Translations under genes and position numbers: made by a program
In this document: positions 8,049 through 64,000 of the stretch, piece by piece
Layout: every line of letters begins with the position of its first letter
How positions within the stretch are numbered: position 1 is the first letter of the stretch
The notes under the pieces: generated by a model
What the model was told of the DNA's origin: nothing
The model's input: only the letters and a program-made list of their open reading frames with translations
Database searches by the model: none
NCBI GenBank assembly: GCA_946403845.1
Contig: CAMJBL010000005.1
Location: forward strand, 32,719 to 96,718
Direction of reading: 5' to 3'
DNA length: 64,000 bases
Source: an uncultured Prevotella sp.
GTDB lineage: Bacteria > Bacteroidota > Bacteroidia > Bacteroidales > Bacteroidaceae

Positions 8049-8096
8049 CTAGAATACTAGTATTACTAGTCCGACTAGTCAGGCTAGCCCGGCTAG
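8049..8096. repeat. CTAG array, 9-bp period
   Basis: CTAG at 8049, 8057, 8066, 8075, 8084, 8093; spans obg start codon to adk stop codon. Confidence 0.9.
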
Positions 8097-8666: not shown

Positions 8667-8722
8667 TCACTATTCACTTTTCACTATTCACTTTTCACTG
8701 TTCACTTTTCACTGTTCACTAC
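8667..8722. repeat. 7-bp tandem array TCACTNT x8
   Basis: TCACTAT TCACTTT TCACTAT TCACTTT TCACTGT TCACTTT TCACTGT TCACTAC in exact register. Confidence 0.95.
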
Positions 8723-10856: not shown

Positions 10857-10861
10857 AAGGA

Positions 10862-10896
10862 GTGAGAAGTGAGAAGTGAAAAGTGAAAAGTGAAGA
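10862..10896. repeat. 7-bp tandem array GTGARAA x5
   Basis: GTGAGAA GTGAGAA GTGAAAA GTGAAAA GTGAAGA. Confidence 0.9.
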
Positions 10897-25737: not shown

Positions 25738-25746
25738 CGAAAAAAA

Positions 25747-25774
25747 GTGAAGAGTGAAGAGTGAAGAATGAAGA
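25747..25774. repeat. 7-bp array GTGAAGA x4
   Basis: GTGAAGA GTGAAGA GTGAAGA ATGAAGA; inverted partner at 25848. Confidence 0.9.
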
Positions 25775-25847: not shown

Positions 25848-25882
25848 TCACTTTTCACTTTTCACTTCTCACTTTTCATTTC
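25848..25882. repeat. 7-bp array TCACTTT x5
   Basis: TCACTTT TCACTTT TCACTTC TCACTTT TCATTTC. Confidence 0.9.
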
Positions 25883-25890
25883 TCTCACCA

Positions 25891-36965: not shown

Positions 36966-37017
36966 CTGAGTAATCTGCGCATTCCGAGTAATCCGAGTAT
37001 TCTGAGTATTCCGATTT
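36964..37017. repeat. 9-bp array WTCYGAGTA x6
   Basis: ATCTGAGTA ATCTGCGCA TTCCGAGTA ATCCGAGTA TTCTGAGTA TTCCGATTT. Confidence 0.9.
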
Positions 37018-51612: not shown

Positions 51613-51644
51613 TTTGGAAGTATCAAATATAGTTATTATCTTTG
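51613..51644 (+). promoter_or_regulatory. Bacteroidetes promoter TTTG-N20-TATCTTTG
   Basis: TTTG 51613-51616, TATCTTTG 51637-51644. Confidence 0.6.
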
Positions 51645-51665
51645 CAGTGTAAAAATCCAAGAACT

Positions 51666-52334
51666 ATGGAACACAACATCAACAACAAAGAGAAACAAGT
51701 GCTGCGCAAGCAGAATCGGTGGGAAGGACTCTACTTCTATCAGAAGTCGAATGTGCTCTACCAACTGACATTCGCTTTCACTAAGCGTTTCCTAACCCGT
51801 GGCGACCGCACCATCGACCAGATGGTACAGGCGGCACGCTCAGGCAAACAGAACATTGTGGAAGGCTCCGCCGACGGCGTCACCTCGATGGAGATGGAGT
51901 TGAAACTCTTGAACGTCGCCCGAAGCAGTATCAAGGAACTGAAGGAAGACTACGAGGACTACCTAGCCTCGCGCCATCTCTCGCGCTGGACGGCCGGGCA
52001 TGCCCGCTACGACGGGATGCTGAAATTCTGCCGCCGGCATAACGCCATTGCTGACTACGAGAGTTTCTTCGAAAAATGGACTGCCGAAGAGATGGCAAAT
52101 ATAGCCTTAACGCTCTGCCATATGGTGGACAGGATGATGACCACCTATCAGAAGCAACTGGAACAGGAATTCGTGACAGAGGGCGGAATCAAGGAACGGA
52201 TGACAGCCGCCCGCTTGAGCTATCGCACAAATCAAAAAGAAGAAATAGCCCAACTGAAGCAAGAATTGGAGCAGGCCCACCGCAGGATCGCCGAGCTCGA
52301 GGCGAAACTCAAGGCCATAGAAGGAAAGGAATAA
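51666..52334 (+). CDS. Four-helix-bundle protein (23S rRNA IVS-protein-like) with suffix and C-terminal coiled coil
   Basis: LYQLTFAFTKRFLTRGDRTIDQMVQAARSGKQNIVEGSADGVTSMEMELKLLNVARSSIKELKEDYEDYL. Confidence 0.8.
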   Translation: MEHNINNKEKQVLRKQNRWEGLYFYQKSNVLYQLTFAFTKRFLTRGDRTIDQMVQAARSGKQNIVEGSADGVTSMEMELKLLNVARSSIKELKEDYEDYLASRHLSRWTAGHARYDGMLKFCRRHNAIADYESFFEKWTAEEMANIALTLCHMVDRMMTTYQKQLEQEFVTEGGIKERMTAARLSYRTNQKEEIAQLKQELEQAHRRIAELEAKLKAIEGKE

Positions 52335-52346
52335 GGCTCTTTCTTG

Positions 52347-52461
52347 CTAGCCTGGCTAGCCGTTCTAGCCTAGCTAGATAGACTAGAATGGCTAGATTAG
52401 CTAGATCGGCTAGTTCGGCTAGGTAGGCTAGATTGGCTAGTCAGGCTAGATCGGCTAGTTC
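52347..52461. repeat. CTAG array, exact 9-bp period, 13 phased units
   Basis: CTAG at 52347, 52356, 52365, 52374, 52383, 52392, 52401, 52410, 52419, 52428, 52437, 52446, 52455, plus one extra at 52370. Confidence 0.97.
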
Positions 52462-52466
52462 AAAGC

Positions 52467-54230
52467 TCAGAACTGCCAGCGGTTGGGGATCTGGCGGTCG
52501 GGCCAGAGGTGCTTGGCGTAGGTGTAATGATACTGCTCGAAGAGCGAGGTAAAGCGGGTGAGGCGCTGGAGGAAGGCTTGATAGTTTTTGCGCGCGGGCT
52601 GTGTCCATTGCACCTCAGCGAGGGCCGACATGCGGGGCAGCGCCTGATACTCCACCATCTGCTCGTTGGTCATATACTCCGTCCAGAGGTTGGCCTGCGT
52701 ACCGAGGATATGACTGCGGGCCTCCACAGAAAGGCTGTCGGGAGCGGGATCGAGGGCATAGACCTTCTCGATGGGGATAAAGCCGCCGCAACGACTGGGT
52801 TCAAACTCAGTATCCTTCACCTGCTGGTAGTCGAAATAGCAGTGGGTTGTTGGCGACATCACCACGTCGTGACCTGCCTCAGCAGCCTTCGCACCGGGGG
52901 CAGAGCCGCGCCACGACATAATCATCGCATCATGAGGCGCACCATCGAGAATCTCGTCCCATCCCAAGGCGCGACGGCCTTTGGAAGCCAAGATATTGAA
53001 AACCTTGTTAGTAAAGTAAGGTTGCAACTCAGACCGTACCATTTCCTCAGGAGAAAACTCTGGCATCGTCCGCGGACCATCAGAGCCTCCTTCAACTTGG
53101 CCAGCTACGCGGCCTTGAAGTACCTTCTTCAAATAGAGTTTACTGCATTTCTCGCAATGCACCCATTTCTCGGCGGGTGTCTCGTCGCCACCGATATGGA
53201 TAACCTCGGATGGGAAGATATCCATCACCTCGGTCAGCACATCCTCAACAAACTCATAGACGCGGGGATTACTGACGCAGAGCACGTCCTTATACACGCC
53301 CCAGTAGTGACCCACCTGATAAGGGCCGCCCGTACAACCGAGTTCGGGATAAGCGGCGAGGGCTGCCAACATATGACCCGGCATATCAATCTCAGGCACG
53401 ATGGTGATGTGGCGGGCTGCGGCGTAGGCTACAATCTCACGGGCCTCAGCCTGAGTATAGAAACCGCCGTAGGAGATGCCATCGTCGAGGTCGGAGTTGG
53501 TACCGATGATGGTGCCGCTGCGCTGTGAGCCGATGGTAGTGAGACGGGGCCACTTCTTGATCTCGATGCGCCAGCCCTGATCGTCGGTCAGGTGCCAGTG
53601 GAACACGTTCATATTGTGCAGCGCCAACAGGTCGATGAACTTCTTCACGAACGCAACGGGGAAGAAGTGGCGCGAGCAGTCGAGGTGCATCCCACGCCAG
53701 GAGAAACGCGGGGCATCGGTAATCACCACAGGATTAAGGAGTGTGAAAGGAGGCGTCGCGGAGGAAGCGGAAGGATGATTCGTGAGTTCCGTGACGTGTT
53801 GTGACTGTCGGGCGTTGACAACGGCCTTTCGGAGTGTCTGGATGCCATAGAAGACACCAGCCGCAGAGCCGCCCGCAATCGTTATTCCTTTCTTATTGAT
53901 TGTAAGCACATAGCCCTCGGATTCCTTGACCTTCGGCGACACAACGAGTTCGATGTATGTCTTTCCCTTCTCCCGTTTCTGGGCAAGGGGCAGCGTTCCG
54001 CCGGTGACATCCTTCAGATAGGCCTGCAGGAAATCGGCCTCAGCCTTCAACTCCTCTGGCGCCACAATCTCCACCAGATCATTCCACAGCGTAAACGGCT
54101 CGCCCTTCTGCATCTCGATGCTTTGCGGCAGCGGCACGATATCGTATTGCGCCCTGACGGGGCTAACTGATAAATAACAAATAATAAATAATAAACCTAT
54201 CAGTCTATAACTATATTTCTTGGTAATCAT
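52467..54230 (-). CDS. GH20 beta-N-acetylhexosaminidase
   Basis: FSWRGMHLDCSRHFFPVAFVKKFIDLLALHNMNVFHWHLTDDQGWRIEIKKWP; HIGGDETPAEKW; start moved to MITKKYSYRLIGLLFIICYLS. Confidence 0.94.
   Translation of the reverse strand: MITKKYSYRLIGLLFIICYLSVSPVRAQYDIVPLPQSIEMQKGEPFTLWNDLVEIVAPEELKAEADFLQAYLKDVTGGTLPLAQKREKGKTYIELVVSPKVKESEGYVLTINKKGITIAGGSAAGVFYGIQTLRKAVVNARQSQHVTELTNHPSASSATPPFTLLNPVVITDAPRFSWRGMHLDCSRHFFPVAFVKKFIDLLALHNMNVFHWHLTDDQGWRIEIKKWPRLTTIGSQRSGTIIGTNSDLDDGISYGGFYTQAEAREIVAYAAARHITIVPEIDMPGHMLAALAAYPELGCTGGPYQVGHYWGVYKDVLCVSNPRVYEFVEDVLTEVMDIFPSEVIHIGGDETPAEKWVHCEKCSKLYLKKVLQGRVAGQVEGGSDGPRTMPEFSPEEMVRSELQPYFTNKVFNILASKGRRALGWDEILDGAPHDAMIMSWRGSAPGAKAAEAGHDVVMSPTTHCYFDYQQVKDTEFEPSRCGGFIPIEKVYALDPAPDSLSVEARSHILGTQANLWTEYMTNEQMVEYQALPRMSALAEVQWTQPARKNYQAFLQRLTRFTSLFEQYHYTYAKHLWPDRQIPNRWQF
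54168..54195. repeat. 7-bp array (minus: TTTATTA TTTATTA TTTGTTA TTTATCA) inside signal-peptide coding sequence
   Basis: Identical 28-mer to 10933-10960. Confidence 0.95.
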
Positions 54231-54232
54231 CT

Positions 54233-54260
54233 GTAAACTGTAAACTATAAACTGTAAACT
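54233..54260. repeat. 7-bp array GTAAACT x4
   Basis: GTAAACT GTAAACT ATAAACT GTAAACT. Confidence 0.92.
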
Positions 54261-55395
54261 AAAACCTATACTCAACAAAAGCTTCCATCGCCTCGTAGCT
54301 GGCGAGGCCGAGTTCATCGTAGCGCTTGGCAGTCTCGCGGTTGCGGTCCTCGGCACGCTGCCAGAACAAGCGTTCGTCATTACCAAGGAAGGGCGCACTC
54401 TCCATCTGACTCTGATGGCGCAGGATGGAGTTACGTTTCTCACGGAGCTCCTCCGGACTCATCGGCACACACATCTCGATGTCGGCCACATCCCACTCTG
54501 CCCAGGCACCTCGGTACATCCACACACGACAGTCCTTCAACCACTCTGCCCCAGCCTGTTTGGCTTCGTCGATAGCCGCCAGCACAGCATCGGTACACTT
54601 GCGATGGGTGCCATGCGGATCGGCCAGGTCGGCAGCCACATAGATCTGATGGGGCTGTATCTCCTCCAACAGCTGTTGGATAGGCTCCACATCGCGCTCC
54701 GTCATCGGGAGTTTCTCAATCTTGCCACTCTCATAGAAGGGCAGATCGAGGAAATGGATATGATCCTTCGGAATATGGTTATAACCGCAGGCATTACGGG
54801 CCTCCCCACGCCGGATGAGCCCTTTCACCGTCAGGATGGCCTGATTGTCGCAATCTCCGGTCTGCTTCTCCTTCAGGTAACTCATGATCTCCTTGTAACG
54901 AATCTTGATGACCTCATCGGAGCCATTAGCGAAGAGCTGGTTGAAACCATTGATGAAGTGCATATACAACCGCACCTCCTCATCAGCCACCGCGATATTA
55001 CCAGATGTCTCGTAGGCGATGTGGACATCGTGCTTCTGCTGCATCAAGCGACGGATGGTGCCACCCATGGAGATGACGTCATCGTCGGGATGAGGCGAGA
55101 ATACCACCACCCGCTTGGGATAGGGTTTGGCACGCTCCGGACGGGTAGAATCATCCACATCCGGCTTACCGCCAGGCCAACCCGTGATGGTGTGCTGCAA
55201 CTCGTTGAACACTTCGATATTGACGAGACCGGCCTGACCGTCGAACTGCTCGACAAGGTGGCCGAGACCGTTGTCAACATAGTCTTTCGTCGACAGTTTG
55301 AGCAAGGGCTTGCCCACTTTGTTGCAAAGGTCGATGACCTGCCTGCGCAAGGTGTGCTCAGGCATCTTGATCGTAGATGTTAGGTTTAGATTCAT
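54259..55395 (-). CDS. PIG-L family deacetylase-like protein
   Basis: RVVVFSPHPDDDVISMGGTIRRLMQQKHDVHIAYETSGN; YVAADLADPHGTHRKCTDAV. Confidence 0.8.
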   Translation of the reverse strand: MNLNLTSTIKMPEHTLRRQVIDLCNKVGKPLLKLSTKDYVDNGLGHLVEQFDGQAGLVNIEVFNELQHTITGWPGGKPDVDDSTRPERAKPYPKRVVVFSPHPDDDVISMGGTIRRLMQQKHDVHIAYETSGNIAVADEEVRLYMHFINGFNQLFANGSDEVIKIRYKEIMSYLKEKQTGDCDNQAILTVKGLIRRGEARNACGYNHIPKDHIHFLDLPFYESGKIEKLPMTERDVEPIQQLLEEIQPHQIYVAADLADPHGTHRKCTDAVLAAIDEAKQAGAEWLKDCRVWMYRGAWAEWDVADIEMCVPMSPEELREKRNSILRHQSQMESAPFLGNDERLFWQRAEDRNRETAKRYDELGLASYEAMEAFVEYRF

Positions 55396-55396
55396 A

Positions 55397-55431
55397 GACT
55401 TTGAACTTTGAGCTTTAAACTTTGAGCTTTA
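55397..55431. repeat. 7-bp array RACTTTG/AGCTTTA x5
   Basis: GACTTTG AACTTTG AGCTTTA AACTTTG AGCTTTA. Confidence 0.9.
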
Positions 55432-61343: not shown

Positions 61344-61348
61344 TTTTA

Positions 61349-61376
61349 GAGGTGAGAGGTAAGAGGTGAGAGGTAA
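61349..61376. repeat. 7-bp array GAGGTRA x4
   Basis: GAGGTGA GAGGTAA GAGGTGA GAGGTAA; contains the candidate GTG start (61366-61368) of the next gene. Confidence 0.92.
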
Positions 61377-62154
61377 GAGAATACTCAGAAAGCTGAACAA
61401 GCAGCAAGGATGGAAACTCAGGGTTGTAGTGATTTCGGTCGCTATGCTCTTACCTCTTATCACATCTCTCACCTCTCACCTCTCACCTCTCACCTCTTAC
61501 ATAAACGCCCAAGGCGTTCAGACGGGTAAGGCCTCATTCTACGCCATGAAGTTCTCCGGGCGGAAGACCGCCAGTGGCGAACGGCTACATCATGACTCGC
61601 TGACTTGTGCCCATAGAACCTATCCCTTCGGCACCCAGTTGAAAGTGACGAACCCCAATAATGGCAAGACTGTCATTGTGCGTGTCACCGACCGCGGGCC
61701 TTATGTAAAAGGACGTATCATCGACCTCTCCGTACGAGCAGCCAGGGAATTGGGTATTATCTCGCAAGGAATTGCACCCGTGATTGTGGAACGCTATAAT
61801 CCTTCGATTATTCCCTTCAAGCCTGAAGACATCATAGAGTTGCCGGAATTGGAACTGAGCACGAATGAGGGTCCGATGTCCAAGCCTATCTGGGTGGAAC
61901 TGAAAGAACAGCAGGAACAAAGAAACAAGAGTCAGAAGGCCGTACCTGTCATCAACCGCAAGTTCCCCCCCCCACCCGATAAGAAAGAAGAGCCCAAGGA
62001 TGTCAAGACGCCCGAAATGAAGGCTCCTGAGACCAAAGCGCCTCAGACACCTCAGAACAACAGGAACGGCATCGACGAAATCAACAAGAAGCCCAACCAG
62101 TCAAAGGCTTATCAGAAACGGGAAGAAGGATCAGCAAAGAAAAGCAGGCGATGA
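61366..62154 (+). CDS. RlpA-like septal ring lytic transglycosylase/DPBB protein
   Basis: QGVQTGKASFYAMKFSGRKTASGERLHHDSLTCAHRTYPFGTQLKVTNPNNGKTVIVRVTDRGPYVKGRIIDLSVRAARELG. Confidence 0.93.
   Translation: MRGKRILRKLNKQQGWKLRVVVISVAMLLPLITSLTSHLSPLTSYINAQGVQTGKASFYAMKFSGRKTASGERLHHDSLTCAHRTYPFGTQLKVTNPNNGKTVIVRVTDRGPYVKGRIIDLSVRAARELGIISQGIAPVIVERYNPSIIPFKPEDIIELPELELSTNEGPMSKPIWVELKEQQEQRNKSQKAVPVINRKFPPPPDKKEEPKDVKTPEMKAPETKAPQTPQNNRNGIDEINKKPNQSKAYQKREEGSAKKSRR
61467..61501. repeat. 7-bp array TCTCACC x4 + TCTTACA, in frame inside the RlpA signal peptide
   Basis: TCTCACC x4 then TCTTACA; inverted partner of 61349-61376. Confidence 0.93.
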
Positions 62155-63848: not shown

Positions 63849-64000
63849 TTATTCAGCCTTCTCTTCCTCAGCAGGAGCGGCCTCTTCTGTGGCAGGAGCC
63901 TCTGCGGGAGCAGCCTCCTCAGCAGCGGGAGCCTCAGCAGCAGGAGCCTCAGCCTTTGCACCTGAAGAACGACGAGAACGACGGGTCTTCTTCTTGCCAC
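63849..64000 (-). CDS. Partial CDS, Ala/Glu/Pro-rich C-terminal tail after a basic stretch (runs off right edge)
   Basis: Minus frame ending at tta 63849-63851: ...GKKKTRRSRRSSGAKAEAPAAEAPAAEEAAPAEAPATEEAAPAEEEKAE*; family not assignable from the tail. Confidence 0.6.
   Translation of the reverse strand, partial: GKKKTRRSRRSSGAKAEAPAAEAPAAEEAAPAEAPATEEAAPAEEEKAE

Follow-up and report, generated by a model that had tools for sequence, protein, structure and literature searches.

The array and its genomic setting

The window, i.e., the whole stretch of 64,000 nucleotides analysed here, belongs to an uncultured Prevotella sp. represented by a MAG that is 80% complete (hereafter G000). Genes were predicted with our own simple caller, and for genes outside the window, the functions given were read from the translations rather than taken from a curated search. 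The features of the window that are relevant for this analysis are the following.

51642..52334, + strand: four-helix-bundle gene, similar to 23S rRNA intervening-sequence proteins (PF05635, weak, below the cut-off)
52347..52458, no strand: CTAG array, 13 CTAG at an exact 9-bp pitch with free 5-nt spacers
52370..52373, no strand: single off-phase CTAG within an array spacer (CTAG scan)
52467..54443, - strand: glycoside hydrolase family 20 (GH20) gene (PF00728)
8049..8096, no strand: second CTAG array, five in-phase units (8057-8096) and one CTAG 8 bp before them
36983..37014, no strand: (TCNGA N4)n 9-bp phased array of four units, a related array class with another core
8667-8720, 10861-10894, 25746-25774, 25848-25884, 54231-54270, 55399-55431, 61348-61379 and 61466-61497: arrays with a 7-bp period (AGTGAAN, TTTACAG, AGAGGTA and similar units)
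63866-63953: low-complexity, coding-like repeat with 33- and 15-bp units at the window end, CCTCAGCAGCAGGAG

Re-reading of the sequence confirms that CTAG recurs at 52347+9n for n=0..12, with the spacers given in the preliminary description of this locus. The off-phase CTAG at 52370 originates where the spacer CCTAG is followed by the next CTAG, yielding CTAGCTAG. The array was also said to fill exactly the gap between two convergent stop codons; it does lie between them but occupies only 112 bp of the 132-bp gap, with 12 bp separating it from the stop codon of the four-helix-bundle gene (52334), the product of which has a C-terminal coiled coil, and 8 bp from the stop codon of the GH20 gene (52467). 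TRF reports this array merely as a weak 9-mer repeat with 75% matches. The array folds as one long hairpin with an RNA minimum free energy of -66.7 kcal/mol, better than all 300 letter-shuffled versions (mean -52.0, sd 4.3). In the displayed sequence, no T run follows the array, so that the GC hairpin plus T run of an intrinsic terminator is lacking here, and an Rfam search of the window yields no match.

The second CTAG array lies in the gap that separates the obg start from the adk end (both genes are on the - strand), such that the adk stop codon is the TAG of the last CTAG. The array at 36983-37014 belongs to a second 9-bp phased family with a palindromic unit near TAYTCNGAR (TCNGA core), which is present in G000 and in the sister species G090 and G103 (0-1 matches to the reversed control); a pattern scan with this control identifies further sites of the family, e.g., L031:6993, L031:15744, L037:10325 and L152:9155. 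The heptamer arrays occur at a density of about 1-2 per 10 kb in G000 and in every sister species, and those inspected (before adk, the GH20 gene and a PIG-L-like gene) are found near gene starts.

Phasing of a scarce tetramer

The rarity of CTAG assumed in the preliminary description is borne out by the counts: the window contains 37 copies compared to 249 expected from base composition, a depletion of about 7-fold, and about half of these 37 fall in the two arrays (52347..52458 and 8049..8096). Outside arrays, the depletion reaches approximately 10-15-fold. In 377 kb of G000, 107 CTAG pairs are spaced by exactly 9 bp, compared to 0-2 pairs at any other spacing below 17 bp, and the 107 units include 60 or more distinct spacers, in agreement with the claim that the tetramer and the phase are conserved whereas the remainder is free. 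A genome-wide search of G000 with (CTAGN5)3CTAG yields 126 matches, and the reversed pattern yields none; thus, the possibility envisaged at the outset, that CTAG is common and its phasing is at the chance level, does not hold. An unbiased scan of periods 5-15 singles out two of them: 9, with CTAG as its core, and 7, which corresponds to heptamers with GTGA and similar cores.

Adjacent spacers differ at 2.33 of the 5 positions, compared to 2.96 at random, which is a signal of local unit duplication. Nevertheless, only CTAG is retained whereas slippage copies whole units, and the earlier conclusion that the array differs from simple slippage stands. The purine content of the spacers on the sense strand matches that of the flanking intergenic DNA. 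Between loci, only CTAG and the 9-bp pitch are common; the spacers resemble the local DNA and are species-specific.

Distribution across genomes

The arrays are not peculiar to the source assembly. Besides the recurrence within G000, matches of the (CTAGN5)3CTAG type are detected in 99 of 200 congeners, with up to 189 matches per genome and nearly none for the reversed pattern. Within the family, 10 of 30 genera, mostly those rich in MAGs, contain CTAG arrays (the reversed control gives about zero), and no CTAG arrays are detected in the Bacteroides-like genomes sampled in this family-wide scan. In a phylum-wide sample of 299 Bacteroidota, a 6-unit pattern is matched only in G000, and a 7-unit scan of GTDB representatives identifies at least 119 stretches, most of them, among the matches listed, from gut and rumen Bacteroidales, the isolates Prevotella conceptionensis and Prevotellamassilia timonensis included. 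The matches listed also include arrays in Verrucomicrobia, Kiritimatiellae and Victivallales MAGs, several of them from the rumen (L181, L191, L216, L220, L232); arrays in such Verrucomicrobia-related MAGs may reflect horizontal spread, misbinning or convergence. Viral contigs were discarded as a source of evidence because 113 of their 136 arrays are perfect 9-mer repeats and hence uninformative.

Within genomes, the distribution is uneven. Among the largest contigs of G000, seven, which total about 617 kb (lengths partly estimated), are free of arrays, and six others hold all of the approximately 25 arrays listed. In the congener G010, nine of the 16 listed arrays are found within 30 kb (G010:C3:1599601-1629938, L040 and L041), 1-7 kb apart among ordinary housekeeping genes, and the rest of this genome is nearly array-free. 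Several explanations of this clustering were considered and rejected. A conserved chromosomal domain is incompatible with the mapping of the genes of the G010 cluster to an array-free contig of G000, and proximity to the replication origin with the location of dnaA, in both G010 and G084, on contigs other than those with arrays; the GC-skew profile of G010 is too noisy to place the origin or terminus. A genomic island or bin contamination is not supported either, given that array and array-free contigs are alike in GC range and in the low density of lone CTAGs; the presence of the G010 arrays among housekeeping genes further counters the island reading. The lack of CTAG arrays in the sister species G090, in about 617 kb of G000 contigs and in the G000 counterpart of the G010 cluster speaks against a housekeeping role.

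Position relative to genes and codon choice

The preliminary description asked whether the arrays are restricted to gene ends and considered a role as an mRNA 3'-end element. Neither is supported as a general rule. Among the arrays of G000 sampled, 11 of 22 (10 of 23 on a recount) are in frame within genes, including alaS, mutL, purB, asnS, dxs, thrC, a Fkp-like gene and a helicase gene, as named from translations, and other arrays lie within operon-like gene runs (e.g., adk|obg in G000 and grpE|dnaJ in G010). In coding arrays, frame 1 (T/A/S/P-S-x; xS-x) dominates, and frame 2, in which TAG would be read as a stop codon, is never used. Within conserved genes, the arrays occupy permissive loops without disturbing the reading frame, and some of these loops are reused: the AlaS loop accommodates 15 CTAG units in G131, a more distant genome, and another array in the GTDB genome L258, and the helicase loop is likewise filled in the GTDB genome L245. 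The arrays at the GTDB loci, which were picked for length, are mostly intergenic, unlike those in the G000 sample: among the matches listed, 76 are in co-directional gaps, 13 in convergent gaps and 3 in divergent gaps, and 27 are in genes. Thus, divergent gaps account for 3 of 92 gaps among the matches listed, compared to the expected 15-20% (p 4e-4 to 4e-6). The co-directional arrays among these matches are close to the upstream stop codon, with a median distance of 14 nt.

Only two arrays, both without any insertion, are clearly silent at the protein level. The glycine dehydrogenase subunit GcvPB contains a conserved segment LVDLxDLERLVxL, in which all five leucines are encoded as CTA-G in G031, producing five phased CTAGs, compared to three of five in G000 and no CTAG in G103. 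In a DUF2723-like membrane protein, the segment LAGLVSLVGL has four of four leucines as CTA-G in G000, and the same leucines are encoded by CTG or CTC in G090, none as CTA-G. Given this synonymous recoding in two conserved genes, it is the nucleotide sequence that is kept, not the encoded protein. The sampled coding sequence of G000 contains only five runs of at least four phased Leu-Gxx codons, four of which are CTA-rich (4/4, 4/5, 4/5 and 3/5), and the CTA baseline at Leu-G positions elsewhere in G000 is 1.3-1.5%. When whole arrays are included, 13 of 22 Leu-G codons located 9 bp from a CTAG are CTA, compared to the 1.3% baseline, and 48 of 50 NCN-AG codons in this position are NCT, compared to a 5% baseline. 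The phased use of CTA-G fits a force that acts on the nucleotide sequence at this pitch; neither slippage nor selection at the protein level would have such an effect.

Turnover among sister species and the number of units

A comparison with sister species, at about 85% identity, reveals differences in the presence and unit number of arrays. The window array itself is shared with G103, where the orthologous gap (L094; our own alignment) contains seven intact CTAG units and one CCAG and is 95 bp long, compared to 135 bp in G000; seven of the eight homologous CTAGs are intact and about 15% of the spacer bases are changed, which is too few sites for a firm test. Arrays private to one species sit where sister species have 2-18 bp. 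For example, in the gap of a permease-gene pair, G000 has gctga(CTAGN5)4CTAGaagattatg whereas the sisters have gctga[AT/TT]aagattatg. The array at 8049..8096 is missing from G103, G090 and G031: the obg|adk gap in sisters contains nothing, 18 bp or a different 9-bp repeat. In G031, this gap (L111/L112) is filled by CACGAATTW units of 9 bp that form an inverted repeat of 97 bp.

Elsewhere, the CTAG arrays of G000 are replaced in sisters by TCNGA-type 9-bp arrays (the Fkp-like, ThrC and helicase sites), by CNGG-type 9-bp arrays (the PurB, AlaS and TolC-like sites) or, in AsnS of G099, by heptamers. The sister species thus keep other phased arrays at the same places, and therefore the sites are shared whereas the array classes turn over. 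The stand-in of TCNGA-core arrays for CTAG arrays extends to some orthologous sites only; heptamer repeats (TTCAATG; CTCAACT-like) are in frame in the AsnS (L048) and PurB (L061) loops that hold CTAG arrays in G000, and other polar tripeptide repeats fill the same enzyme loops in sister species. In sisters, CCAG, CTGG or CCGG is found in place of CTAG in some decayed units. CTAG arrays are gained or lost rapidly between sister species.

Counts of arrays with 2, 3, 4, 5 and 6 units are 1, 1, 8, 6 and 3 in G000, where the selection of most stretches for 4-unit matches makes any threshold partly ascertained, and 7, 0, 4, 0 and 2 in G010, where the pairs are near the chance level. In a roughly unbiased 604 kb, there are five arrays with at least four units and none with three. 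The counts in G031 show no dip (four arrays with two units, two with three and three with five). These numbers are suggestive, not proof, of a run threshold of four units, and only in G000 and G010.

Possible function

Taken together, these features suggest that the CTAG array is a DNA (or RNA) signal under selection and did not arise by accidental copying. The best mechanism that we can propose, tentatively and as somewhat less likely than not, is that the arrays are landing sites for a candidate cooperative CTAG-binding protein, as the preliminary description had it when it suggested a phased protein-binding array; a binding protein was not found. A putative cooperative dimeric DNA-binding protein would read CTAG in successive grooves, single CTAGs would be avoided as weak or harmful off-target sites, and, once a nucleus exists, extra in-phase CTAGs would be favoured until about four neighbours give stable binding. 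At a 9-bp pitch, successive sites would miss a full turn by about 51 degrees, which might suit a spiralling row of small dimers, e.g., ribbon-helix-helix proteins. Bound arrays might function in domain organisation, local gene control or segregation.

The strongest rival, although on balance unlikely, is a CTAG-directed mutational drive, whereby misaligned template-directed repair, or a CTAG nickase combined with cut-and-extend repair, would lengthen phased runs without benefit to the cell, leaving tolerated minisatellites. The similarity of adjacent spacers, the private arrays at places where sisters have only a few base pairs, the regional clusters and fast turnover, and the several other 9-bp and 7-bp array classes in the same permissive sites of sisters are all compatible with such a drive. 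However, slippage duplicates whole units, yet only CTAG is retained; the silent recoding of conserved leucines requires point changes always towards the rare CTA-G; and pure expansion predicts more two- and three-unit than four-unit arrays, the reverse of what is seen in G000 and G010. Spacer runs common to different loci are not above the null either (5 pairs, with a null mean of 2.0 and maximum of 6); copying of arrays between loci was rejected on the same comparison with a shuffled null. A passive origin, in which the absence of Vsr repair lets CTAG persist so that arrays arise, is hardly credible: CTAG is a target of Vsr-type repair, and the CCAG, CTGG or CCGG state of decayed sister units would fit, but Vsr is present in 112 of 200 congeners, G000 included, and is unrelated to the array count (Mann-Whitney p 0.46).

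Because CTAG is its own reverse complement, the palindromic core cannot tell DNA from RNA recognition, and a rather improbable alternative is that phased CUAG (or UAG) is bound by a multimeric RNA-binding protein, in the manner of TRAP, which recognises spaced UAG/GAG triplets, or forms protective hairpins. The near confinement of arrays to probably transcribed regions, the proximity of co-directional arrays to the upstream stop codon and the strong folding of the window array all point in this direction. The avoidance of divergent gaps, however, may be mere promoter avoidance, a palindromic core is unexpected for an RNA site, and Rfam provides no match in the window. Moreover, spacers add little pairing to the CTAG scaffold (mean z about -0.06 to -0.14 in column shuffles and -0.7 to -1.0 in letter shuffles), folding is the same in coding and intergenic arrays, and the purine bias of the spacers is no greater than in the flanks; with spacers barely better than shuffles across arrays, an RNA hairpin was rejected as a general design. 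If the array served the two convergent genes of the window as a transcription terminator or another 3'-end element, its location between two stop codons and its strong hairpin would be accounted for. This is very improbable, given that the majority of arrays at other loci occupy either co-directional gaps (grpE|dnaJ and adk|obg among them) or positions in frame within genes, and that only 13 of 92 gaps among the matches listed are convergent. Selection at the protein level might favour tripeptide repeats as S-x-x or L-x-x linkers and generate CTAG incidentally. This reading is compatible with the dominance of frame 1, the lack of frame 2 and the polar tripeptide repeats of other kinds that sister species have in these loops; the identical core and pitch of intergenic arrays and the push of synonymous codons to CTAG render it extremely improbable.

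Returning to the landing-array reading, its broadest form, which we consider possible but short of probable, is a nucleotide-level second code in Prevotella-related genomes: arrays of at least four CTAGs at a 9-bp pitch would serve a putative cooperative binder as landing sites, running between genes and through essential genes by means of rare synonymous codons or in-frame loop insertions, with lone CTAGs purged elsewhere. If so, a phase-coded genomic signal would dictate synonymous codons and reshape loops of alaS, asnS, purB, dxs and thrC, and yet turn over between sisters. Such a signal would suggest that abundant bacteria of the gut and rumen possess a new DNA- (or RNA-) binding system, would explain in concrete terms why CTAG is avoided and would be a case in which a protein-binding array determines codon choice. 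Those who annotate genomes or model proteins would encounter TSQTSQ or SSx loops, artificial in appearance, within conserved enzymes.

Comparison with known sequence elements

The operators of MetJ and TrpR are arrays of short cores at a fixed pitch, and TrpR operators contain phased CTAG at an 8-bp pitch. The CTAG arrays also resemble the parS sites of pSM19035, recognised by ParB/Omega, in the short core, fixed short pitch, contiguous runs and free orientation or flanks; full activity of ParB, a ribbon-helix-helix protein, requires at least four contiguous 7-bp repeats (PMC9499535). The fixed pitch, the conserved core and a minimum run, the latter in G000 and G010 only and subject to the ascertainment noted above, are thus common to the CTAG arrays and cooperative operators or parS. 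A promoter location is not, judging from the 3 of 92 divergent gaps among the matches listed, and a location at a partition locus is probably not either, as judged by dnaA, which is not nearby. The CTAG arrays further differ from these systems in the 9-bp pitch, the palindromic CTAG core and the dozens of chromosomal sites, including essential genes.

Among dispersed repeats, the short tandem heptamers of cyanobacteria, Xanthomonas and Beggiatoaceae similarly form dispersed short arrays that are patchy between species, but these families repeat the whole unit identically or nearly so and are mostly intergenic (PMC4692102, PMC4679880). In contrast, the CTAG arrays have five of nine positions free, with 60 or more spacers in 107 units in place of near-identical head-to-tail copies, and also occur in frame in genes, partly by means of synonymous codons. 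REP/BIME elements share with the CTAG arrays intergenic copies in operons and convergent gaps, scarcity in divergent gaps and hairpin potential; however, they are extragenic, unlike about half of the G000 arrays, and have a conserved palindromic unit of 20-40 bp, whereas the CTAG arrays conserve nothing beyond 4 bp. Rickettsia palindromic elements are long conserved palindromic insertions. They are likewise present in frame within essential genes, but the CTAG arrays have no sequence common to loci beyond the spacer dialect, and some involve no insertion. CTAG profiling in Salmonella describes strong depletion of this tetramer, with the remaining copies conserved in intergenic regions and hairpins suggested (PMC5337935); these are single CTAGs, and the text does not mention a tandem, spaced or periodic arrangement. 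Among the papers searched, none describes CTAG arrays in Prevotella. The CTAG array fails the defining features of short tandem repeats, REP/BIME and Rickettsia elements and is best regarded as a new sequence element, although a cautious reader may see in it a variant of interspersed repeats.
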